Source of the DNA: Poseidonibacter lekithochrous | GTDB taxonomy: Bacteria; Campylobacterota; Campylobacteria; Campylobacterales; Arcobacteraceae | Length of the DNA stretch: 64,000 bases | NCBI RefSeq assembly: GCF_013283835.1 | Contig: NZ_CP054052.1 | Coordinates: forward strand, 2,108,001-2,172,000 | Reading direction: 5' to 3' | In this document: positions 1 to 14,560 of the stretch, piece after piece | Numbering within the stretch: position 1 is the first letter of the stretch | Layout of the letters: each line of letters opens with the position of its first letter | The notes under the pieces: generated by a model | Told to the model about the DNA's origin: nothing | What the model saw: only the letters and a program-made list of their open reading frames with translations | Database searches by the model: none | Position numbers and translations under genes: made by a program

Positions 1-395
1 GTCCCTCTTTGACCTACTGTAAATACATAATCATAGGCTTGAGATTGATTAGATCGCATTGATTCCTTTTCACTCTCACCATGATTTAAATGAACATGAT
101 AACCTCTACTATATCTTACTGATTGGAAATTTTTAAGAGAGTTATTAATATATAATAAAACTGCAAATTCATTTTCATCATAAAATTCTATTAAATCACT
201 AAATGATTCAAGATAAACAACTTCAATAGATTGATCTTTTAAATATTGTTTATAAACCTCATAATCAGTTATAATATATAAAACCTTATGTTTCTTATCT
301 AATTCCTCAAATGGTCTTTGCCATTGTTTTATCTGATAGTATGAGTTAATACCACCAGAAAAATATACTATTACTTCGCAGTTTTTATGATTCAA
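1..395 (-). CDS. CDP-glycerol glycerophosphotransferase-like protein (partial, N-terminal part)
   Basis: The N-terminal ~131 codons of a gene that runs off the left edge. A TTG start at 395 sits 5 bases after an AGAGG ribosome site and 8 bases after the stop of the upstream cytidylyltransferase, so the two are translationally coupled. No ATG fits. The protein begins with a Rossmann-like strand (VIVYFSGG) and carries YHVHLNHGESEKESM, which resembles the HG-containing motif of the CDP-glycerol:glycerophosphate glycerophosphotransferases (TagB/TagF family). Those enzymes transfer glycerol-phosphate from CDP-glycerol onto a surface polymer. The neighbour makes CDP-glycerol-type donors, which supports the call. 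The catalytic C-terminal part lies outside the window, so specificity cannot be judged. Another nucleotide-activated polyol transferase is possible. Confidence 0.6.
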   Translation of the reverse strand, partial: MNHKNCEVIVYFSGGINSYYQIKQWQRPFEELDKKHKVLYIITDYEVYKQYLKDQSIEVVYLESFSDLIEFYDENEFAVLLYINNSLKNFQSVRYSRGYHVHLNHGESEKESMRSNQSQAYDYVFTVGQRG

Positions 396-403
396 TTTAA
401 CCT

Positions 404-796
404 CTATAATGTTTTGATTTTTTCTATAAGTTCTGTAGTTGAGATATCTGGAGTTCTAGGTAGATATATAACTTCACAAATATCACTAAATTCGTCAAAT
501 TTTCCAGTCCAATCACATCCCATAATAAGACAGTCTGCTTTATGTTCTAGCAAATATTCTCTTTTTAATTCAAGAGATTCTTCTAAAAAGACTTCATTTA
601 CAAAGTCTAAGGATGAAATAATATGCATTCTTTCATCTTCAGTATAAAAAGGCTTTCTTCCCTTTTTTTTAAAGTTTAATTTATCAGAAGATATTCCAAC
701 AACTAACTCATTTCCATGAGACGCAGCTCTTTCTAGGATTCTTAAATGTCCTAAGTGAAAGATGTCAAAAGTTCCAAATGTTAAAACTCTTTTCAT
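404..796 (-). CDS. tagD: Glycerol-3-phosphate cytidylyltransferase-like nucleotidyltransferase
   Basis: A 130-residue single-domain cytidylyltransferase, the usual length of TagD/GCT. It shows the family motifs in order: GTFDIFHLGH near residue 8 (the HxGH nucleotide-binding signature), an RxxxI-type helix (ERMHIISSLDFV), and ISTTELIEKI at the C terminus (the RTxGISTT-like motif). It would join CTP and glycerol-3-phosphate, or a related polyol phosphate, to give a CDP-activated donor in the cytoplasm. It is first in an operon with the downstream glycerophosphotransferase-like gene, so the pair probably builds a glycerol-phosphate modification of capsule, LPS or another surface glycan. The substrate is not proven by sequence: family members also activate ethanolamine phosphate or sugar phosphates. 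Confidence 0.8.
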   Translation of the reverse strand: MKRVLTFGTFDIFHLGHLRILERAASHGNELVVGISSDKLNFKKKGRKPFYTEDERMHIISSLDFVNEVFLEESLELKREYLLEHKADCLIMGCDWTGKFDEFSDICEVIYLPRTPDISTTELIEKIKTL

Positions 797-924
797 TAAT
801 ACCTTTTCTAAATAATATCTATAACATATAACGATTATATAACTTAAAAAATTAATTAGTTATTAAATTTACTATTTACATTAAATCTACAAAATATAGT
901 TTAATTTCATAAAATATTGATAAA

Positions 925-957
925 TTTCATTTAAGTTTCATTTAATTTCACTATAAT
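925..957 (+). promoter_or_regulatory. Promoter with tandem TTTCATTTAA repeats before the NSS transporter
   Basis: Three TTTCA units start at 925, 936 and 946 (the first two extended as TTTCATTTAA), spaced 11 and 10 bp, i.e. one helical turn. They run directly into a perfect TATAAT at 952-957. Helically phased direct repeats against a -10 box are typical of OmpR-type activator sites. The regulator is unknown. Confidence 0.55.
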
Positions 958-982
958 TACCTAAAAATTTTAGGGGTTTTTT

Positions 983-2317
983 TTGAATAAATTTTCAAGA
1001 ATTGGATTTATCCTTGCTGCAGCGGGTTCTGCTGTTGGTTTAGGAAATATATGGAAATTCCCATATGTTACAGGAGAGTATGGAGGTGGTGCATTTGTAC
1101 TAGTATACCTTCTTGCTATTTTATTTATTGGTTTAACAGTATTCTTAGCAGAAGCAGTTATCGGTCAAAACGCACAATCAGATGTAGCTACGTCATTTGT
1201 AAAGACTTCAAAAACAAAAAATGAAAATTGGAAGTTTGCAGGATTTATGATTATTAGTGGTTTACTAATTTTATCATTCTATTCAGTTGTATTAGGATGG
1301 ATTTTAAATTATGTATTTACTTCATTCTCAGCATTACCTACAGAAGCTGCTGTTGCAGGAGCTGCGTTTGAAAAGCTAATTAGTGACGATATTGGTTCAT
1401 TAATTGTTTATCATACACTTATTGCGGGAACTGTAGTATTTATTGTTCTAAAAGGTATCAAAGACGGAATTGAAAAAATCAACTTAATCTTAATGCCATT
1501 ATTAGGTCTTATTTTAGGTGGTTTATTAATCTACGCATTAACTTTAGATTCATTCTCACAAGCTGTATCATTTATGTTTACACCTGATTTCTCTAAGATT
1601 AATGGTGATGCATTACTTGCAGCATTAGGACAAGCATTCTTTACACTATCACTTGGTGTTGGTACAATTATGACTTATTCTGCTTCATTACCAAAAGAAG
1701 CTAACTTTGTTAAATCATCATTTATGGTTGCTATTGTTGATACAAGTATTGCAATTATTGCTGGTTTAATTATTTTCTCATTCCTATTTGAAGCTGGTGC
1801 TCCAAGTGCAGCAGGACCTGGATTAGTATTTATTTCATTACCAGTTATTTTCTCTGGATGGGGAGTATTAGGACAAGTTATTGCTGTTTCATTCTTTGTT
1901 GCATTAGTATTCGCAGGAATCACTTCTGCTGTATCAATGATTGAACCATCACTTAAATTCTTCATTGAAAGATTTAATTTTACTAGAAGAAAAGCTACTA
2001 TTCTTTGTGGTTCTATTTTCTATGTATTAGGTATTGTTGCATTATTATCAATGTCTAAATCTTATGGTGCGGAGTTAACATTCTTTGGTAAAAATGCCTT
2101 TGATTGGATGGACTTTGCAACATCATCTGTAATGATGCCATTAGCAGCATTAATCACTTGTATTTTCTTAGGATATTTTGTTGATCAAGATATGTTAAAA
2201 GAGAAGTTTACAAAACACACAAGTCAAGCAGTATTTAATATCTGGTATTCGCTGATCAGATATATTGTACCTCTTGCAATTATTGTTTTATTCTTAAATA
2301 AATTAGGATTAATATAA
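983..2317 (+). CDS. NSS-family sodium-dependent transporter (LeuT fold)
   Basis: A 444-residue polytopic inner-membrane protein of the neurotransmitter:sodium symporter family. TM1 carries SAVGLGNIWKFPYVTGEYGG, the unwound helix that binds sodium and substrate in LeuT. TM6 has the matching FFTLSLGVGTIMTY break. It would import an amino acid or similar small solute driven by sodium. The substrate cannot be read from sequence. The start is a TTG at 983, 6 bases after an AGGGG ribosome site; the repeat-bearing promoter lies just upstream and a hairpin terminator just downstream, so it appears to be a single-gene transcript. Length is slightly short of LeuT (about 510), consistent with the many bacterial NSS proteins that lack the twelfth helix. 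Confidence 0.92.
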   Translation: MNKFSRIGFILAAAGSAVGLGNIWKFPYVTGEYGGGAFVLVYLLAILFIGLTVFLAEAVIGQNAQSDVATSFVKTSKTKNENWKFAGFMIISGLLILSFYSVVLGWILNYVFTSFSALPTEAAVAGAAFEKLISDDIGSLIVYHTLIAGTVVFIVLKGIKDGIEKINLILMPLLGLILGGLLIYALTLDSFSQAVSFMFTPDFSKINGDALLAALGQAFFTLSLGVGTIMTYSASLPKEANFVKSSFMVAIVDTSIAIIAGLIIFSFLFEAGAPSAAGPGLVFISLPVIFSGWGVLGQVIAVSFFVALVFAGITSAVSMIEPSLKFFIERFNFTRRKATILCGSIFYVLGIVALLSMSKSYGAELTFFGKNAFDWMDFATSSVMMPLAALITCIFLGYFVDQDMLKEKFTKHTSQAVFNIWYSLIRYIVPLAIIVLFLNKLGLI

Positions 2318-2323
2318 TACTTT

Positions 2324-2349
2324 AATCAAAGGCTTAGGCCTTTGATTTT
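2324..2349 (+). terminator. Rho-independent terminator
   Basis: A perfect 10-bp stem (AATCAAAGGC / GCCTTTGATT) with a TTAG loop at 2334-2337, followed by a short T run, 7 bases after the NSS transporter stop. Confidence 0.8.
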
Positions 2350-2420
2350 CTACTAAACTCTACAAAGTTAATTATCATTAAATACATTTAATATTATTTA
2401 CTGTACTATATCATCAACTT

Positions 2421-2494
2421 TTGAGGATGTGACATAGTGGCTGTGTGCTGGGCTCCAATCCAAATATACTAGCCCGATTTCCATTGTCACTCAA
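2421..2494 (+). ncRNA. Candidate structured RNA or 5' leader
   Basis: A GC-richer 74-nt stretch in the otherwise AT-rich gap between the transporter and the next operon. It can fold into a closed structure: TTGA (2421-2424) with TCAA (2491-2494), GTGACA..GTGG (2429-2440) with CCATTGTCAC (2481-2490, small bulges), and an inner GGGCT (2450-2454) with AGCCC (2471-2475). It ends 39 nt before the start of the downstream gene. It matches no tRNA (no T-arm GGTTCGA) and no riboswitch I recognise. It may be a cis-regulatory leader of the 2534 operon or a small RNA. Confidence 0.4.
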
Positions 2495-2533
2495 ACATCA
2501 ATATACTTTTATATAGAAATTTTAGGAGATATT

Positions 2534-4120
2534 ATGAATAAACAAGTAAAAACAACACTACTTCATATTCCACTTTTAGTATTTCAATACTATGCTATTT
2601 TATCTTGTACTCAAAAAAATATTGAGTATTCAAATATAAATTATTTAGAACCACTTGGTTTATTAATCCTTATTCCAATGATTATCATTACTATATATAT
2701 GACTTACAGATTAAAATCTATACATAAATATACAAGAGAATTATATTTATTTGTACTACTTTTTACTCCTACTTCTGTTGGATTCCTGGATAATCATATT
2801 GTATCTTCTCTTATTCCATTTTTAATCTATTCAATAAGTTTTTTCTATATTGACAATATAAAAAATGATGATTTTAGTGAAAATGATAATAAAAAAGAGA
2901 TAGCTCCAAGAGTTTATAATCAATTTTTAGATAACACTTTAGATGAGGGATTTGAAAAGTTTGATTGTAAAAAAGAATTGATTTTATTTGATGATATCAA
3001 AGATTGTGAAATATTAGAAGTAAACAAACTAAATGAAGAAATAGGTATAGTTTACATGAAAAATAATACAAAAAAGTTTTTAAAAATAGAACCAATTTAT
3101 CATATGAGTTCAATAAATGGAATAACTACATTTTTTAAAATTGACTCTAAACCATTAGATCAGATCATTACAAATACTCTTTATAGTGAAGAAGAAAAGA
3201 AAATGGTTGATCAGAATTTTATAAAAACTTCTCATGATATATTAACGGGAATAAAACAAATTGTTAATATATTTCATTTATCAAATAAGCATGATATACA
3301 CAATAGAAATGATATACTTGAAATTATTTATAAAGATAATAAAAACTTAACTAACTCATATAGACTACATTTCACTAATAATGAAAATGAAGATATAAAA
3401 CTAGATATTAAAAAGTATGAAGATATTTTCTCTTTTAAAACAAGAGTTTTAGAGGATAAAGATAAAACACAATTATTATACTCTTATGATCAAAAATATT
3501 TTTGTCCTAAGATGGAATATAACTATTTAGAAGAAGTATATGATGAATCAAAAGATTGTGAGAACTTATCTCCTCAAATAAGAAGAAAAGCTATATGTTC
3601 TTATGATTATGATTTTCCTTTAACTACATTTGGTAGGAAAATTAGATTTGTATTAGATGATAAGGAAGGTATAAAAGCATATAACATATCTCATTCGCAT
3701 CTTTTGAATCCTCTCTTTCTACCTAGTAAAGAAATCTATGCTTATTTAAATGAAAAAGAAAAGAAAAAACTACATCATTTTTTAGCTATTGCACAAATGT
3801 ATTTAAATGACTTATATGTGAATAGAGAGTTTGATAATCAATTTGTAATAGATACTTTTGAAAATGAAGATGATGATTGGAGATTTGATAAGTTAGAAGA
3901 AATTCTTGAAAATAGTAACTGGATAAAGAAAAGATACTATGATAATGCAGAGCAAGGTCATTCTGCTTCAATGTTAGTAGATATTTATTATAAAGAAAAT
4001 AATGAAGATAAAAAGTTTGTACTGTTTAATGAAAATGATTGGTTAAGTTTTAAAATATCAGTTAAATATAATGATGATGTAAAAAGTGAAGTTGAAGAGT
4101 TACTGAAGGATATAATGTGA
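2534..4120 (+). CDS. Membrane-anchored protein of unknown function
   Basis: A 528-residue protein I do not recognise. The first ~120 residues hold three to four hydrophobic segments (around residues 8-25, 40-60, 75-85 and 90-110). They are followed by a hydrophilic ~400-residue domain rich in Lys, Asp and Glu, probably cytoplasmic, with no motif I can assign. The start is ATG after a clear AGGAG ribosome site. It is the first gene of a tight operon: the next gene starts at GTG 4117, overlapping this stop by four bases, and a third follows with a one-base overlap. The other two products carry a signal peptide or membrane anchor, so the set may form an envelope complex. No function is proposed. 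Confidence 0.75.
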   Translation: MNKQVKTTLLHIPLLVFQYYAILSCTQKNIEYSNINYLEPLGLLILIPMIIITIYMTYRLKSIHKYTRELYLFVLLFTPTSVGFLDNHIVSSLIPFLIYSISFFYIDNIKNDDFSENDNKKEIAPRVYNQFLDNTLDEGFEKFDCKKELILFDDIKDCEILEVNKLNEEIGIVYMKNNTKKFLKIEPIYHMSSINGITTFFKIDSKPLDQIITNTLYSEEEKKMVDQNFIKTSHDILTGIKQIVNIFHLSNKHDIHNRNDILEIIYKDNKNLTNSYRLHFTNNENEDIKLDIKKYEDIFSFKTRVLEDKDKTQLLYSYDQKYFCPKMEYNYLEEVYDESKDCENLSPQIRRKAICSYDYDFPLTTFGRKIRFVLDDKEGIKAYNISHSHLLNPLFLPSKEIYAYLNEKEKKKLHHFLAIAQMYLNDLYVNREFDNQFVIDTFENEDDDWRFDKLEEILENSNWIKKRYYDNAEQGHSASMLVDIYYKENNEDKKFVLFNENDWLSFKISVKYNDDVKSEVEELLKDIM

Positions 4121-5361
4121 TTAAATTCCAAAATAGTATTTTATTTGTATTTTTATTTATAAGCACTATAAATCTTAATGCATCAGAAGAAATAGAACTT
4201 AATAATGAGTTCAAAAAATATGTTCCAAAAGAGTCTCAATACAAATGTAATGGGTTAAATGACTTATGTAAAAAGTTTTACATAGGATACAATCTATTTT
4301 CTGTTCAAGGAAGAACAAAACAGAGTTTAGAATATTTACTTGAAGCATATGAAAATAATATATCTTCTATACTTAAAGATGATTGGGATGCTAAAGATAA
4401 CTATTTAACTGATAATATATCTAGACTTTATGGAAGACTTGGTGATAAAAAAAATCAAATTAAATATTTAAAACTTTCAATAAAAGCAGGGGAAGACCAG
4501 AATATTTGTTATCTAGGAAGAGAATATGATAAGTTAGATATGCTAAAAGAAGCACATGAACTTTTTAAAGAAGGCTCTTCTAAAAACTATACTGAATGCT
4601 TTACAGACTATGGAATGTATCTTTTTAATGGAAGATATGTAAAAAAAGATGAAGAATTAGCAGGTAAATATTGGGAAAAAGCTTATTGGGACGATAGTTA
4701 TGGAGATATAGCAAATTATAATATGGCTGTATATTATGGCTATAAAAACAATGATAGACTCTATAAGTATCATATGCTAAAAGCATCACTATTGGGAGAT
4801 GAGGAAGCTAAATCTTATCTAAAAAGCCCATATATAAAAAGTATAAGTACCACAAAACTATTTTTAGAAGAAGCATTAGGAAGTAAATATAAAGATATTT
4901 CAAAAGTAAAAAATCTAGAGTTCTCAAATAGTTTTGATTTATACTATAGACTAAAAAAAATGTTTAATAGAAAAAATAAACTTTATACTAAATGGGAAGA
5001 AGACTATGAATATCAAGATAAAAGATGGGATGAAGATAAATCAAATGTAGTTAAGTTTTATAGAGACCAAAGTTCATTGATTTTTGAAGATAAAAAACTG
5101 ATACTAGAAACAACATTAAATAATCACTTTAATCAAAGAAAAATAATAGTAGATATGAAGCTTTTATATAAGGTTTTATTAGTTGATTTAAGTGAAGCTA
5201 AGGAATTTAATAAATTTTATACTGTAACAGTTGGCTTAATATCAAAAAATGAAAGCTTTGAATTTAAAAATAAAATATCACAATATAATTATAAGTTTTA
5301 CTGGTATGCAAAATATGATAAAGGTAGTGGTAAATTAATAGTTGAGATAGGAATAGTTTAA
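4117..5361 (+). CDS. Exported protein with TPR/SEL1-like repeats
   Basis: A 414-residue protein beginning at GTG, overlapping the previous stop. The first ~22 residues form a signal peptide (hydrophobic ILFVFLFISTINL, then NASEE), so it is probably periplasmic. Residues ~50-230 read as helical TPR/SEL1-like repeats (for example LYGRLGDKKNQIKYLKLSIK, YDKLDMLKEAHELFKEG and a YGMYLFNGRYVKKDEELAGK unit), a scaffold that usually mediates protein contacts. The C-terminal ~180 residues show no recognised motif. As the middle gene of a translationally coupled trio it may bridge the two membrane proteins. The repeat call is by eye and moderately sure; the role is unknown. Confidence 0.7.
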   Translation: MIKFQNSILFVFLFISTINLNASEEIELNNEFKKYVPKESQYKCNGLNDLCKKFYIGYNLFSVQGRTKQSLEYLLEAYENNISSILKDDWDAKDNYLTDNISRLYGRLGDKKNQIKYLKLSIKAGEDQNICYLGREYDKLDMLKEAHELFKEGSSKNYTECFTDYGMYLFNGRYVKKDEELAGKYWEKAYWDDSYGDIANYNMAVYYGYKNNDRLYKYHMLKASLLGDEEAKSYLKSPYIKSISTTKLFLEEALGSKYKDISKVKNLEFSNSFDLYYRLKKMFNRKNKLYTKWEEDYEYQDKRWDEDKSNVVKFYRDQSSLIFEDKKLILETTLNNHFNQRKIIVDMKLLYKVLLVDLSEAKEFNKFYTVTVGLISKNESFEFKNKISQYNYKFYWYAKYDKGSGKLIVEIGIV

Positions 5362-6035
5362 TGAGTTCAAAACAACAAAAAAGAAATCTTTTTATTGCCT
5401 ATATTGTTTTATTTTCTTTTATTATATGGGGTACATTTTTTAATGATAATGAAAAAGAAAATAGTTCTTCTAATACATCTCTATCAAATGAACAAATCAA
5501 AATATTATCAAACTCTTTAATCAGACCAACTCAAGGTGATATGCCAACAAATGAATATTTAAAAATGAAAGAGGTTTTTGAGAAAGACTTTATTGTTAAT
5601 TTTCTAGATTCATTTAAGGAACTAAGTACTAGTGATAAAAAACTTATAGGGAATAGCTTTAAAAAGTTTTATCATAATCAAATAAAACTAAAAAAACTTT
5701 TTGAAGAAGAATTAATTTATAAGTTTATGGAAAGAAATATTTCTTATAAATATGACTTTACTATTAAGACTATATCAGAATATAATATCTATTTAAAACT
5801 GTTTGATAACCATGAAGAAAAAATAGTTTTTAAAATAGACTTTGAAAAAAAAGAAAAAGAATACTCTTCAAAATATTTTTCAAAAGAGTATATAAAAGTA
5901 TATTTACCATATATAAATACAACCCTTTATACACCTTTAGATAAAAAAATAGTAGTGGAAAAAATGTTTAATCTTTTGGAAAATTCAGCCAAACAATTAA
6001 AACTAATAAATGAAAAACTTAAAATAAGAAAATAG
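5361..6035 (+). CDS. Single-pass membrane protein of unknown function
   Basis: A 224-residue protein with one N-terminal transmembrane segment (about residues 9-27, IAYIVLFSFIIWGTFF) and a charged, mostly helical remainder. The start overlaps the previous stop by one base, so it belongs to the same operon. No recognised motif. It is followed 8 bases later by a decayed gene that was probably once the fourth member. Confidence 0.7.
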   Translation: MSSKQQKRNLFIAYIVLFSFIIWGTFFNDNEKENSSSNTSLSNEQIKILSNSLIRPTQGDMPTNEYLKMKEVFEKDFIVNFLDSFKELSTSDKKLIGNSFKKFYHNQIKLKKLFEEELIYKFMERNISYKYDFTIKTISEYNIYLKLFDNHEEKIVFKIDFEKKEKEYSSKYFSKEYIKVYLPYINTTLYTPLDKKIVVEKMFNLLENSAKQLKLINEKLKIRK

Positions 6036-6043
6036 GAATAACC

Positions 6044-6682
6044 ATGTTTGAAGTAAGAGTTGGTGAATGTATAGAAACTGCTAGTAAATATTTATCGAAA
6101 AACAATTAGATGAAAATCTTAAACTATTTGCTGTACGTTGCGATACAAAAGAAGAATTAATTGAAGATTGGAATACTTATGGAGATTTTTATTTTATACG
6201 TGGATATGAGGATTATTATTTTTCAATCCACTATGTAGAAGAAAATGCCCAAAAGATTGTAGAAGAAATCAATAAAAAGAATATAAACATACACAAACAG
6301 TTAAAGGCATAGATTTAGATAATAAAGAATTAGCTATAAGAGTTGGAGATTTATATTATGATTCACTTTCAGAGTTTCTAGAAGCCTTATCTGAAAAACT
6401 ACATGAAGATGGAATTGCTGATAAAAACAGAGGAAGAAAGAAATTATCAGATTCTCTATTTCAAGCTTCACAAGATATAAAAAAAGCTAGTGAATCTATA
6501 GATATTGCTTGGGATATATGTGAGCCTTTTGTAAAGTCATGGCACGATAAGAATGATTTAGAGTATAATCAGTAAAAGATAAAAAGTCCTATTATAAAAT
6601 ATTTTGTGATGGAGTAATAAGTATTGAACTACATGGTAATTCAATAAAAACTCTTATAAAAAATTATGCTTTATTCTACTAG
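6044..6682 (+). pseudogene. Decayed gene with three frameshifts
   Basis: Four protein-like segments follow one another in different frames: ATG 6044 to about 6090 (MFEVRVGECIETASKYL), about 6090-6312 (from FIEKQLDENLKLF to INKKNI), about 6290-6575 (from KGIDLDNKELAIRVGDLYYD to EPFVKSW) and 6572-6682 (from VKDKKSYYKIFCDG to NYALFY, stop TAG). Joined, they would give a soluble protein of about 210 residues. Three frameshifts in 640 bp, with intact genes on both sides, points to genuine decay rather than random sequencing error, though that cannot be excluded. The family is not recognised. Confidence 0.65.
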
Positions 6683-6697
6683 ATAAATAGCAGAATT

Positions 6698-7837
6698 TTA
6701 CATAGATAAGCACTTGGCTATATTAAAAGCTGTTAGTTCTAGATTTCTTTTTGACTCTTTTTTAATTGTTTCAAAATCCATAGATATTGGTGTTATATCA
6801 AAAACTGCATCAATTCCATAATCAAATACAACTTCATAATCATTGCTAACGCATCCAGCAATTGCAATTACTTTTTTATCATATTTCTTTGCTAGTTTTG
6901 CTACACCAATTGGAGTTTTCCCATTAATAGTTTGAGAATCAATTTTACCCTCACCTGTTATAACTAAATCTGCTTTTTGTATTATTTGCTCTAAACCAGC
7001 TTTATCCATAATTATATCAATACCACTTTTTAGTTTTGCATCTAAGAATGTAATCAAAGCAAATCCTAATCCCCCGGCAGCTCCACAACCTTCTATATCT
7101 CTTCTTTTTATAGATAGTGTGCTTTCGCATAAATCTGCAAAACTTGAGACATAAGAGTCAAGAGTTTTTATCATATCTTTATTTGCGCCTTTTTGTTTTC
7201 CAAAAACATAAGAAGCACCATTTGAGCCACATAAAGGATTTTTTACATCACAAGCAACTTCAATATTAATATTTTTGAATTTTTCTTTTAATAAACTTGC
7301 ATCAAAACTTGAGATATTTTCTAAGTCTTTTCCACACACTAAAGGTAAAATATTATTTTTGTTATCATAAAAAATAACCCCTAAAGCTTGAAGCATACCA
7401 ATACCACAATCATTTGTAGCACTTCCTCCAAGACCTAAAACAAAATCTTTTACACCATTTTCTAGGGCATGATTTATTAATTGTCCAAAACCATAAGAGC
7501 TTGTATTCATAGGATTTTTCTCGTTTTGAGATAGAAGTTCTAATCCACTAGCACTAGCCATTTCAATAATTGCTGTTTTTTTATCTCCTAATATTCCGTA
7601 AAAAGATTCTACTTCACGAAAAAGTGGATCATAAACTTTTGTTTTAATAATCTCCCCAGAAGTTGAGTTTACTAAAACTTCTACAGTACCCTCACCTCCG
7701 TCAGCTAGGGGAATTGTATGAAAGTTTGCATTTGTAAACACTCTTTGAAAACCATTTTTTATACCATCACAAACTTCTTGTGCACTCATGGTTTCTTTGA
7801 AAGAATCAGGAGCAATAATAATATTTTGTTTATTCAT
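6698..7837 (-). CDS. Glycerate kinase (GarK/GlxK family)
   Basis: A 379-residue glycerate kinase that phosphorylates D-glycerate, feeding glyoxylate or tartronate carbon into glycolysis. The N terminus APDSFKETMSA is the family signature, followed by PLADGGEGTVE and LGLGGSATNDCGIGML (about residue 130), then GCGAAGGLG and ITGEGKID near 260-300, the conserved glycine-rich and catalytic loops. Length matches the family (~380). An upstream in-frame ATG at 7879 lies over a TATAAT-like sequence, so I prefer ATG 7837. The ribosome site is weak. It is transcribed divergently from the DCC-family gene and appears monocistronic. Confidence 0.92.
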   Translation of the reverse strand: MNKQNIIIAPDSFKETMSAQEVCDGIKNGFQRVFTNANFHTIPLADGGEGTVEVLVNSTSGEIIKTKVYDPLFREVESFYGILGDKKTAIIEMASASGLELLSQNEKNPMNTSSYGFGQLINHALENGVKDFVLGLGGSATNDCGIGMLQALGVIFYDNKNNILPLVCGKDLENISSFDASLLKEKFKNINIEVACDVKNPLCGSNGASYVFGKQKGANKDMIKTLDSYVSSFADLCESTLSIKRRDIEGCGAAGGLGFALITFLDAKLKSGIDIIMDKAGLEQIIQKADLVITGEGKIDSQTINGKTPIGVAKLAKKYDKKVIAIAGCVSNDYEVVFDYGIDAVFDITPISMDFETIKKESKRNLELTAFNIAKCLSM

Positions 7838-7924
7838 TATTTTTCTTTTTAATTTTAATCTTAGGTATATTATAGCCAATGTTAAGTACTATACGTTTAA
7901 GCAAAATATAATGAAGGCTAAATT

Positions 7925-8311
7925 TTGATTATGATTTACGATAGTAATTGTACATTATGTGAATCTTCTGTTCATTGGATTATTAAAAACGATAAAAATA
8001 AACATTTTAAATTTTTAAGTGCCCATTCAAGATTAGGTAAAAATTACTTATTAAAATACAATCTTGACCCAGATGATTTAGAAACTGTAACATTAATAAG
8101 AAATGATATTGCATATATAAAAAGTGATGCTGTTCTAGAAACTGCAAAAGAACTAGATGGTTCATGGAAACTATTTTATATATTCAAAATCATACCAAGA
8201 TTTTTAAGAGACAAAATATATATGTATGTTTCTAGAAATAGATTTAAACTCTTTGGGGATAGAGAAAAATGCATCTTACCTGAAGATGACATCAAAGATA
8301 GATTTATTTAG
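7925..8311 (+). CDS. DCC-family thiol-disulfide oxidoreductase-like protein (DUF393)
   Basis: A 128-residue protein with the DxxCxxC signature at the N terminus (IYDSNCTLCESSV), which names the DUF393 or DCC family. The rest is thioredoxin-like, ending in a basic segment (RFLRDKIYMYVSRNRFKLFG) and a CxLP motif typical of the family. The biochemical role in bacteria is unproven. TTG 7925 is the likely start because GAAGG lies 7 bases upstream; the ATG at 7931 would be 13 bases away. A strong hairpin follows the gene. Confidence 0.85.
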   Translation: MIMIYDSNCTLCESSVHWIIKNDKNKHFKFLSAHSRLGKNYLLKYNLDPDDLETVTLIRNDIAYIKSDAVLETAKELDGSWKLFYIFKIIPRFLRDKIYMYVSRNRFKLFGDREKCILPEDDIKDRFI

Positions 8312-11935: not shown

Positions 11936-14560
11936 ATGTATAGAATAATCTTATTTATATTTATAGTAATTTTTTTTAATAGTTGTGGCTCTAATAATGA
12001 AAATAAAACTGGATACTTTATTGATGCACCAGTAAGTGGGATTGAATACACTTGTGGTTCTCAACAAGGATTTACAGGAGAAAATGGAGAGTTCACATAT
12101 AATTCCTCGTGTAAAGTAGTATTCACAGTAGGTGGAATTGTATTAGGAGAAATTAATGGTGAGGATATCAACACTGATAGCAATGTTTTGCCTTCTGATA
12201 TTATGGGTGTTAGTAGAGAGAACATAACTGATACAAAAGTTGTAAAGTTAATACAATTCTTACAATCTATAGATAATGATGATAATCCAGACAACAATAT
12301 TGTCATTACAAAAGATACTCATAAAGCCTTACTAAATTGTGATTTTAATTTTGAAAAAGACAAAGATCATACTGCTGATATTGTAGAAGCAATAACAATA
12401 TTAAATAAAAAGCTAGTTTCTAAAGAACAAGCAATTTCACACTACAAAAAAGAACTAGAAAAAAGACTTCTTATAAAACCTACGAAAGAGGAAGTAAAGA
12501 CTGTAAACATTCCAAAAGAAGAAGTAAGTGAAAATATAGTTCTTGATGAACCAGAAAAAGAAATAAAAGAGCCCAAAATAACGCCTATTAAAATAGTGAT
12601 TAAAAAACCTATTGAAAAAATAGCTATTGTAGAGGAAACTCCTGAAGTAATCGAAGAGATTGCTCTAGTGGAAGAAGTTGTTGAACAAGAAGAAACTCCC
12701 GAGGTAGTTGAAGAAGTAATAGAGGAAATTGCTTTAGTTGAGGAAATTGTTGAGCAAGAAGAAGAGATAGCTGAACCTATCGTTGAAGAAATTGCTCAAG
12801 AAGAAACTCCTGAAGTAGTTGAAGAACCAATTGTAGAAGTTGCTCTTCTAGAAGAAGTTATTGAACAAGAAAAAGTGATTGTTGAACCTATCGTTGAAGA
12901 AATTGCTCAAGAAGAAACTCCTGAAGTAGTTGAAGAACCAATTGAAGAAATTACTTTAGTTGAGGAAGTTATTGTTGAGCAAGAAGAAATAATAGTTGAG
13001 CCTATCATTGAAGAAATAGTTCAAGAAGAAACTCCCAAAGTAGGAGAAGAAGCAATCGAGGAAATCGTTCTTGTGGAAGAAGTGATTGCGCAAGAAGAAA
13101 TAATTGTTGAACCTATCGTTGAAGAGGTAGTTCAAGAAGAAACTCCAGAAGTGGTTGAAGAACCGGTTGAAGAAATAGCTCTTGTGGAAGAAACTATTGA
13201 ACAAGAAGAAGTAATTATTGAACCTATCGTTGAAGAAATTGCTCAAGAAGAAACTCCTGAAGTAGTTGAAGAACCAATCGAAGAAATTGCTTTAGTTGAG
13301 GAAATTGTTGAGCAAGAAGAAGTAATTATTGAACCTATCGTTGAAGAAATTGTTCAAGAAGAAACTCCTGAAGTAATTGAAGAACCAATCGAGGAAATTG
13401 TTGAGCAAGAAGAAGAAATAGTTGAACCTATCATTGAAGAAATAGTTCAAGAAGAAACTCCCGAAGTAGTTGAAGAACCAATCGAAGAAATTACTTTAGT
13501 TGAGGAAGTTATTGTTGAGCAAGAAGAAATAATAGTTGAGCCTATCATTGAAGAACTTGTTCAAGAAGAAACTCCTGAAGTAATTGAAGAGCCAATTGTG
13601 GAAGTTGCTCTTGTGGAGGAAGTGATTGAGCAAGAAGAAATAATAGTTGAACCTATCGTTGAAGAAGTTGTTCAAGAAGAAACTCCAGAAGTTGTTGAAG
13701 AACCAATCGAAGAAGTTGCTCTTGTGGAAGAAGTGGTTGAGCAAAAAGAAGTGATTGTTGAACCTATCGTTGAAGAAGTTGTTCAAGAAGAAACTCCCGA
13801 AGTAGTTGAAGAACCAATCGAAGAAGTTGCTCTTGTGGAAGAAACTATTAAACAAGAAGAAGTAATTGTTGAACCTATCATTGAAGAAATAGTTCAAGAA
13901 GAAATTCCCGAAGTAATTGAAGAACCAATTGTAGAAGTTGCTCTTGTGGAAGAAGTTGTTGAGCAAGAAGAAGTGATTGTTGAACCTATCGTTGAAGAAG
14001 TTGTTCAAGAAGAAACTCCTGAAGTAATTGAAGAGCCAATTGTAGAAGTTGCTCTTGAGGAAGAAACTATGGAACAAGAAGAAGTGATTGTTGAACCTAT
14101 CGTTGAAGAAATAGTTCAAGAAGAAACTCCTGAAGTGGTTGAAGAAGCAATTGAAATAGAAGAAGAAATAGTTGAGCCTATTGTGGAAGAAGAAGTTCTA
14201 GATGAAAGTTCACCATTTAATCTAAGTATAGAAACAGAAAACATAAATACAAATCAAGATGATATAGGGTTCTCTTATGAAAACCAAAGAGATGTAAATA
14301 TAAATATCTCTGTTGAGAATTCATTGTCAAACAAACAAGTACTACTATATGAAAATATGAGTATTACTCCTACACCAGTAGGTGATTTGGAAAAACTAGA
14401 AAACATAATAATATCAACTGTATTTAATTTAGATGGAGAATTAAACCTAACTTATACATTAGGTAATCATATAACAAGCATATGGTTAGTTATCCCATTT
14501 TATGGCTTAACTATGGAAATACCAATTTCTGATAACAATGTTTATTTAGTATTAGAATAA
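11936..14560 (+). CDS. Lipoprotein with long acidic Glu/Val/Pro repeat region
   Basis: An 874-residue protein with a lipobox (IFFNSCGS, Cys at about residue 17). Residues ~25-165 form a globular domain of a type common in surface lipoproteins (starting YFIDAPVSGIEYTC, with GFTGENGEFTY and a LIQFLQSIDNDDNPD segment). Residues ~230-755 are an acidic repeat array of about 13 units of the pattern EPIVEEIVQEETPEVV plus a variable EEIALVEEVVEQEE part. The last ~120 residues are a beta-rich domain. It is probably surface- or periplasm-anchored, with the array as an extended spacer. Start ATG follows an AAGGAG site. It is 9 bases upstream of the LruC gene, so they are one operon. The repeats create long open frames on the opposite strand that I regard as artefacts. 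Confidence 0.85.
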   Translation: MYRIILFIFIVIFFNSCGSNNENKTGYFIDAPVSGIEYTCGSQQGFTGENGEFTYNSSCKVVFTVGGIVLGEINGEDINTDSNVLPSDIMGVSRENITDTKVVKLIQFLQSIDNDDNPDNNIVITKDTHKALLNCDFNFEKDKDHTADIVEAITILNKKLVSKEQAISHYKKELEKRLLIKPTKEEVKTVNIPKEEVSENIVLDEPEKEIKEPKITPIKIVIKKPIEKIAIVEETPEVIEEIALVEEVVEQEETPEVVEEVIEEIALVEEIVEQEEEIAEPIVEEIAQEETPEVVEEPIVEVALLEEVIEQEKVIVEPIVEEIAQEETPEVVEEPIEEITLVEEVIVEQEEIIVEPIIEEIVQEETPKVGEEAIEEIVLVEEVIAQEEIIVEPIVEEVVQEETPEVVEEPVEEIALVEETIEQEEVIIEPIVEEIAQEETPEVVEEPIEEIALVEEIVEQEEVIIEPIVEEIVQEETPEVIEEPIEEIVEQEEEIVEPIIEEIVQEETPEVVEEPIEEITLVEEVIVEQEEIIVEPIIEELVQEETPEVIEEPIVEVALVEEVIEQEEIIVEPIVEEVVQEETPEVVEEPIEEVALVEEVVEQKEVIVEPIVEEVVQEETPEVVEEPIEEVALVEETIKQEEVIVEPIIEEIVQEEIPEVIEEPIVEVALVEEVVEQEEVIVEPIVEEVVQEETPEVIEEPIVEVALEEETMEQEEVIVEPIVEEIVQEETPEVVEEAIEIEEEIVEPIVEEEVLDESSPFNLSIETENINTNQDDIGFSYENQRDVNINISVENSLSNKQVLLYENMSITPTPVGDLEKLENIIISTVFNLDGELNLTYTLGNHITSIWLVIPFYGLTMEIPISDNNVYLVLE
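12640..14200 (+). repeat. In-frame tandem repeat array (about 13 units of 108-120 bp)
   Basis: Units share the core GAACCTATCGTTGAAGAA and CAAGAAGAAACTCC (with silent and conservative changes) and average about 110 bp. One unit near 13,380-13,420 is shortened by an in-frame deletion, which suggests that the copy number changes by recombination or slippage. Confidence 0.9.

Follow-up and report, generated by a model that had tools for sequence, protein, structure and literature searches.

The 74-nt element at 2421-2494 (+ strand) of the window, which is the whole 64,000-nt stretch of Poseidonibacter lekithochrous DNA that was analysed, is with a probability of about 0.8 the pseudogene of an accessory tRNA, termed tRNA alpha, and together with a scrap of an RBDp gene in the same segment the relic of a horizontally spread cassette with a proposed private code, intact copies of which seem to recode UGA. 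The window by itself records a gene that decayed in the usual way, however unusual the gene; if the reading is right, it also records the death of a private code.

Composition, folding and database searches

The element was presented in a preliminary description as a GC-richer region with a multi-stem fold, placed as the structured 5′ leader of an operon, and as neither a known riboswitch nor a tRNA. Its GC content was 46% against 26.7% for the window, a value reached by only 0.034% of 74-nt windows, and the arms described were located as TTGA 2421-2424 with TCAA 2491-2494, GTGACA 2429-2434 with TGTCAC 2485-2490, and GGGCT 2450-2454 with AGCCC 2471-2475; the spacing of 39 nt from 2494 to the ATG at 2534 was likewise correct. 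The structure drawn from these arms came to −13.3 kcal/mol against a minimum of −19.9 kcal/mol, and the fold was not significant (z −1.35 on the + strand, with 21/200 shuffles equally stable; z −0.18 on the − strand, with 78/200). Among 12,786 sampled 74-nt window folds, 43 equalled the + strand of the element in stability. The Rfam search over the window at gathering gave no match on the element, and a search around the element relaxed to E 10 left it equally unmatched, in line with the absence of a known riboswitch, and ARAGORN called no tRNA there. The element is odd, GC-rich and RNA-derived.

The position 39 nt before the ATG and the extreme local GC would suit a riboswitch or other structured 5′ leader for the operon that starts at 2534, but this interpretation is highly improbable, since the fold is no better than shuffles, Rfam has no match, the element directly matches tRNAs, and the only two other genomes in which the first operon gene has a homologue, G015 and G005, contain no match to the model of the element. 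BLAST of the element in its own 3.57-Mb genome returned a single full copy and otherwise short matches. Across the genus the best E elsewhere among the matches listed was 6.4e-4, on a flank, and a few short matches touched the element. An exact 26-nt pattern was not found in viral contigs. Readings as a MITE, an attC site or a transposon end were considered by eye and dropped when the tRNA match appeared.

Assignment to tRNA alpha

A covariance model of the element alone (R1) was searched over 104 genomes of the family. Besides the element it matched G077 (E 5e-6), G051 (2.9e-4 and 0.86) and G059 (0.0032); these first four places are tRNA genes of 91-93 nt with the anticodon UCA, labelled tRNA-SeC by ARAGORN and tRNA by Rfam (44.8-57.7 bits), and the weaker matches in G090, G026 and G101 are not called tRNAs by ARAGORN. 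A reciprocal model of ten alpha tRNAs, built with the window left out (R2), found 2421-2492 as the sole place in the window (22.3 bits, E 3e-4). Over the whole genome the element came last among 37 R2 matches (E 0.016), so that R2 also detects ordinary tRNAs and specificity rests on direct comparison scores.

The direct score of the element was 59 with the alpha of G077, an intact tRNA-UCA to which it is identical at 34/37 positions over the best stretch, 34-59 with 8/10 alphas and 15-16 with the two most distant ones (L106 and L107). Scores of 10-19 were obtained with 29 tRNA genes of its own genome (from selected genome stretches with repeat copies omitted, and so not all tRNAs of the genome) and of 12-19 with six betas, the second tRNA of intact cassettes, while 1000 shuffles reached 29.5 at most. 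The genome's own selC, which lies elsewhere, scored 13, and G000 and G077 each have a separate selC. An origin from one of the genome's ordinary tRNAs (its selC, a Ser or Leu tRNA, or another), decayed and without any tie to a cassette, would agree with the higher R2 scores that such tRNAs reach; the gap between 59 for the G077 alpha and at most 19 for the other tRNAs tested, together with the RBDp remnant in the same segment, makes such an origin very unlikely.

The statement that the element is not a tRNA was therefore overturned: it is a broken tRNA gene that retains 15/26 cloverleaf pairs (D-stem 5/5, acceptor 5/7, anticodon 3/5, T-stem 2/5), against 21-26 of 26 in the alphas, and lacks the variable arm. 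It shows neither the complete cloverleaf nor the tRNA-finder call of a functional tRNA. Covariation, which had been proposed as a check, was found for the cloverleaf that the intact tRNAs share (two-sided changes at 11 pairs, with as many in 0/500 shuffles) and not for the fold as drawn. The gap in the element can be placed after an anticodon loop altered from UCA to CCA or, by eye, across the loop, and under either placement the element is a dead tRNA. Its identity as a remnant of tRNA alpha is well supported.

The 4.34-kb segment and its second relic

Alignment with the closest compared genome, G005, showed that a segment of ~4.34 kb at 2354-6695 is present here and absent there: G005 (L042) matches window positions 1-2353 at 96.3% and 6696-8162 at 91.2%, the two blocks are contiguous in G005, where the glycerate kinase gene comes straight after that for the SNF transporter. 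Four other members of the genus, compared in the matching orientation (L043, L045, L046 and L048), carry different sequence downstream of the SNF gene. The element, the operon and both relics all lie inside the segment.

The second relic, at 6569-6687 (+ strand), is a frameshifted remnant of the C-terminus of RBDp, a protein encoded just downstream of tRNA alpha elsewhere. It was found by hmmsearch with profile A5, built with the window left out, which matched 6569-6679 at E 1.5e-6 among 2235 six-frame stretches, and by tblastn (E 0.002); a possible continuation at 6640-6687 lies in a different frame (E 0.81 on its own). The operon consists of cargo gene 1 at 2534-4120 (528 aa; no Pfam, NCBIfam or PADLOC match), cargo gene 2 at 4117-5361 (414 aa; weak Sel1/TPR matches below cut-off) and cargo gene 3 at 5361-6035 (224 aa; no Pfam match), all on the + strand. 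Three-frame translation of 6045-6568 (+ strand), between the operon and the RBDp remnant, gave one or more broken frames with two shifts and, as far as seen, no relation to RBDp. The genome contained no further RBDp match at E 1e-5 and no U32B gene. Searches of the segment gave no match in phages and two short matches in plasmids, and the first operon protein was not found in viral contigs.

Because the alpha relic and the RBDp remnant lie at its ends, the segment has the look of an alpha-RBDp cassette that has died with the operon inside it, and by sequence comparison the element and the scrap at 6569-6687 are probably the relic of a horizontally spread cassette. With the tRNA and RBDp dead and no recoded gene found in the window, this copy is most likely inactive now. 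As candidates for a recoded gene of the window, six TAA-free frames were considered that span 300 codons or more and hold eight or more TGA or TAG codons; the three of them that were compared with genes overlap an ordinary repeat gene at 11936-14560. That gene (+ strand) encodes a standard-code lipoprotein with long Glu/Val-rich repeats, the N-terminus of which is homologous to the recoded-type lipoprotein of L105 (tblastn E 2e-21).

Intact cassettes

Intact alpha is 87-93 nt long and has a long variable arm and an anticodon UCA that is invariant in 10/10 sequences. It lies 10-37 nt upstream of the RBDp gene (208-231 aa), which in L102 and G301 is disrupted by a TAA or a frameshift. When GTDB contigs were scanned with RBDp, at least nine loci came up, in Campylobacterota MAGs and one Hydrogenothermus (Aquificota). 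ARAGORN called a tRNA-UCA just upstream of RBDp in eight of the nine loci listed; the ninth, L104, is a shortened copy next to a transposase gene. Four of the nine are not independent, since their contigs are those already present in G051 (three) and G059 (one). The second long-armed tRNA, beta, adjoins U32A and U32B. Its anticodon is CCG in G051 and G405, both CUA and CCG occur in G059, and in G077 and L101 a 93-nt CUA tRNA and the U32 pair both lie in the neighbourhood. The locus L107 carries U32A, U32B, a 90-nt tRNA with CCG, tRNA-UCA and RBDp in a single stretch.

U32B was present in 3/104 family genomes, exactly those with strong alpha matches. Among 397 genomes of the phylum, RBDp was found in four (broken or partial in three) and U32B in two: G077 has both genes, and in G405 U32B lies on a 3-kb contig without RBDp. 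No nearby tRNA was found by ARAGORN or R2 at the RBDp relics of G354 and G223. The cassette is rare and often decaying, and since many of its genes are broken, decay plays a part in what is seen. The in-frame stops of cassette proteins were considered as recoded sites and dropped, as those stops are TAA.

Some 1 kb away from the U32 genes of G077, at L093:487-3278, an AAA ATPase and an HNH protein match PDC-M62, a candidate pair of PADLOC; the G077 cassette may lie in a defence island.

UGA-rich frames beside the cassettes

In G077 (L093) a single frame of 1098 codons lies between alpha and beta; it has 21 TGA and two TAG and reads as an Ig-repeat surface protein. Further frames were found by a TAA-to-TAA scan, in which the absence of TAA is thus built in. 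These were frames of 536 codons (21 TGA) and 475 codons (12 TGA) in L102, 619 codons (33 TGA, three TAG) in L105, 414 codons (10 TGA) and 330 codons (11 TGA, one TAG) in L099, 509 codons (22 TGA) in L122, 344 codons (12 TGA) in L107 and, by eye, 380 codons (16 TGA, one TAG) in L101 and 230 codons (six TGA) in L135 (G405). L105 is contig CAMCYD010000159.1 of G059, a member of the window's own family, and L099 and L122 are copies within one genome. A frame of recoded type, with 6-33 in-frame UGA, thus accompanies the cassette at 8/14 places (L093, L099, L122, L105, L101, L102, L107 and L135); no clear recoded frame was seen at the other six, namely L100, L103, L106, L118 and the relic loci L119 and L120. 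Under standard translation UGA-rich genes are fragmented, so that such proteins are easily missed.

When stops were written as X, Big_9, DUF4214, a surface Ig domain, He_PIG or FecR scored above the Pfam cut-off in 6/7 frames searched; L099 2629-3870 gave no Pfam domain above cut-off. In the two neighbouring frames TAA made up 25-63% of stops, and the chance of finding no TAA, computed after frame selection, was 0.03 to 2e-10 depending on the frame. Ordinary pseudogenes, beside odd tRNAs that act outside translation, are a minor possibility as an account of these frames. Several cassette genes are indeed broken by TAA or frameshifts, the machinery genes end in UGA, and chance TAA-free frames exist, as the six in the window used as a control show. 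Against it stand the protein-like G077 frame, open over its whole length apart from its TGA and TAG codons, the Pfam domains, the post-selection chances just given, the preference for Gly in three genes described below, and a tRNA of matching, invariant anticodon that adjoins the frames.

UGA occurs soon after the likely ATG in several frames, as MKY-UGA (G077), MKIK-UGA (G059), MK-UGA (L107) and MKK-UGA (L101). Two UGA-rich frames on the − strand, L122:614-2140 and L099:4469-5458, have a type IV pilin-like start and a FecR domain, an odd combination. An EF-hand loop usually has Gly at one fixed position; the L135 (G405) frame from 39 (+ strand) contains the EF-hand-like loop DYNHN-UGA-IID, with UGA at that place.

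Reading of UGA, UAG and CGG

Trial translation of the L102 frames with all 20 residues gave the best score for Gly (71.5 + 54.5 = 126.0 bits), followed by Asp (68.1 + 44.1 = 112.2). Gly was also best among nine residues in L101 (43.4, next Ala 35.7) and among ten in L105 (47.0, next Asn 43.0). In the L102 pair, 3/4 one-sided UGA codons of the well-aligned first part were opposite Gly (one opposite Asp), and 0/13 in the weakly aligned rest. By eye, 2/5 aligned UGA codons of L105 were opposite Gly in the window lipoprotein, the others being opposite Tyr, Asn and Leu. A Gly-type acceptor (G1:C72, C2:G71, G3:C70, U73) was present in 8/10 alphas and in the genome's own tRNA-Gly; the alphas of G051b and L102 have no 3:70 pair. 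By the same features Gly acceptors had been recognised among the tRNAs of Absconditabacteria and Gracilibacteria (PMC8629427). The computed decoding favours Gly for UGA in these three genes.

The 17 RBDp, U32A and U32B genes end in UGA (seven), UAG (four) or UAA (six). Eleven counted cassette genes have no in-frame stop, and other copies are broken by TAA. With 7/17 cassette genes ending in UGA beside UGA-rich surface frames, UGA is a stop in some genes and seemingly sense in another. The recoded-type gene of G059, the genome with both betas, has six CGG and three TAG codons, of which 7/9 fall within 16 codons, a clustering matched by 0/100,000 random placements; six other G059 genes contain no CGG in 1945 codons. 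This suggests that UAG and CGG stand for one residue read by both betas; CGG may still stand for Arg.

Proposed mechanism and significance

In the proposed mechanism, host GlyRS would charge alpha, which would decode UGA as Gly in the linked surface gene and nowhere else, and beta would read UAG or CGG. U32A and U32B would modify beta or its amino acid, and RBDp, at a guess, might bind alpha or the mRNA and so confine recoding to that mRNA. The early UGA of several surface genes would make their expression dependent on the cassette, a possible lock. We infer from these comparisons a mobile, gene-restricted code. We know of gene-restricted recoding in bacteria only for selenocysteine and pyrrolysine, and of UGA as Gly only as a genome-wide code. 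It is conceivable, as a tentative proposal, that intact cassettes form a third natural gene-restricted code expansion beside those two, with UGA as Gly, UAG or CGG as a residue, U32A-U32B hydroxylating its tRNA or its side chain, and surface proteins carried along and locked by early UGA.

A portable cassette with which a standard-code host reads one surface gene privately would show codes changing piecemeal. It would also illustrate a way of blocking the expression of a surface gene in other settings, and would be a source of new tRNA parts.

Comparison with known systems

The use of a stop-codon-reading tRNA as a general trick is already known. The cassette itself departs in a defining trait from every known system with which it was compared. 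The selenocysteine system has an 8-bp acceptor stem, G73, linked selA/selB and SECIS. Like it, the cassette has a dedicated long-armed UCA tRNA that would read UGA as sense in particular genes while the host keeps UGA as a stop, and ARAGORN names alpha tRNA-SeC; unlike it, alpha combines U73 with an acceptor stem of 7 bp, and the cassette's surface genes have tens of UGA each, with Gly as the best fit.

The tRNA-Gly-UCA of Absconditabacteria and Gracilibacteria is not known to have a long arm. An origin of the cassette contigs in such bacteria, in which UGA is Gly genome-wide, or a recent donation from them, is very doubtful. The reassignment of UGA to Gly, as proposed here, and a tRNA-UCA with Gly acceptor features, found here in 8/10 alphas, are shared (PMC8629427), but in those lineages UGA is no longer a stop, whereas here it seems to be sense in some genes and is a stop in others of the same cassette, with 7/17 counted genes ending in it and none of the 11 counted genes carrying it in frame. 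The cassettes moreover lie in standard-code hosts, that of G077 inside a single 3.27-Mb contig, and differ in the long variable arm, RBDp and the U32 pair.

In phage suppressor-tRNA recoding (crAss-like phages and others) a mobile element likewise supplies a stop-reading tRNA (PMC10879173); the cassette differs in its chromosomal surface genes and in UGA that would be read as Gly. A phage tRNA with recoded phage genes was not what was found, as RBDp had no match in viral contigs and U32B none in phages; neither gene had a match in plasmids.

The selC* tRNA-Cys and the allo-tRNAs have altered acceptor/T-stem lengths. Alpha differs from them in its 7/5 form, its Gly-type acceptor and the lack of any linked synthetase seen, and resembles them as odd long-armed tRNAs with an opal anticodon and U73 (PMC7609411). 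No such cassette is described in the literature covered, PMC7609411, PMC13092985 and PMC8629427 among it, a scope that did not extend to subscription papers and preprints.

Cassette proteins and neighbouring genes

U32A matched the profiles of the U32 hydroxylases UbiU (E 3e-14 and 5e-16) and TrhP (E 4e-9 and 2e-13), in this resembling the UbiU/UbiV, TrhP and RlhA group. Unlike these, it is linked to tRNA beta, has a partner, U32B, without a family, and scored far below the curated cut-offs (440 and 534 bits). The U32 peptidase family PF01136 was matched above its cut-off of 22.4 bits by U32A of G077 (36.9 bits) and of G051 (50.6 bits). U32B was named for its gene position only, as the constant partner of U32A, and had no family match, including PF01136; the sole stray hit was nanA at E 0.011.

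In the RBDp model (mean pLDDT 79.5) helices precede three strands, after which comes one more helix. A Foldseek search with this model had no match below E 1e-3, with a weak list of mostly mitoribosomal, Dicer and dsRBD chains, and the RBDp profile had no match among PDB sequences; as modelled, the C-terminus looks dsRBD-like. PADLOC returned no match for U32A, U32B or RBDp except a weak AbiTi (E 0.0022).

In G059 a radical SAM-like gene (L121:2797-3834; CxxxCxxC by eye) directly follows U32B. At L130 (G000:C1:788600-791300) a tRNA block Asp-Val-Glu-Lys is repeated five times in tandem within 2.7 kb.
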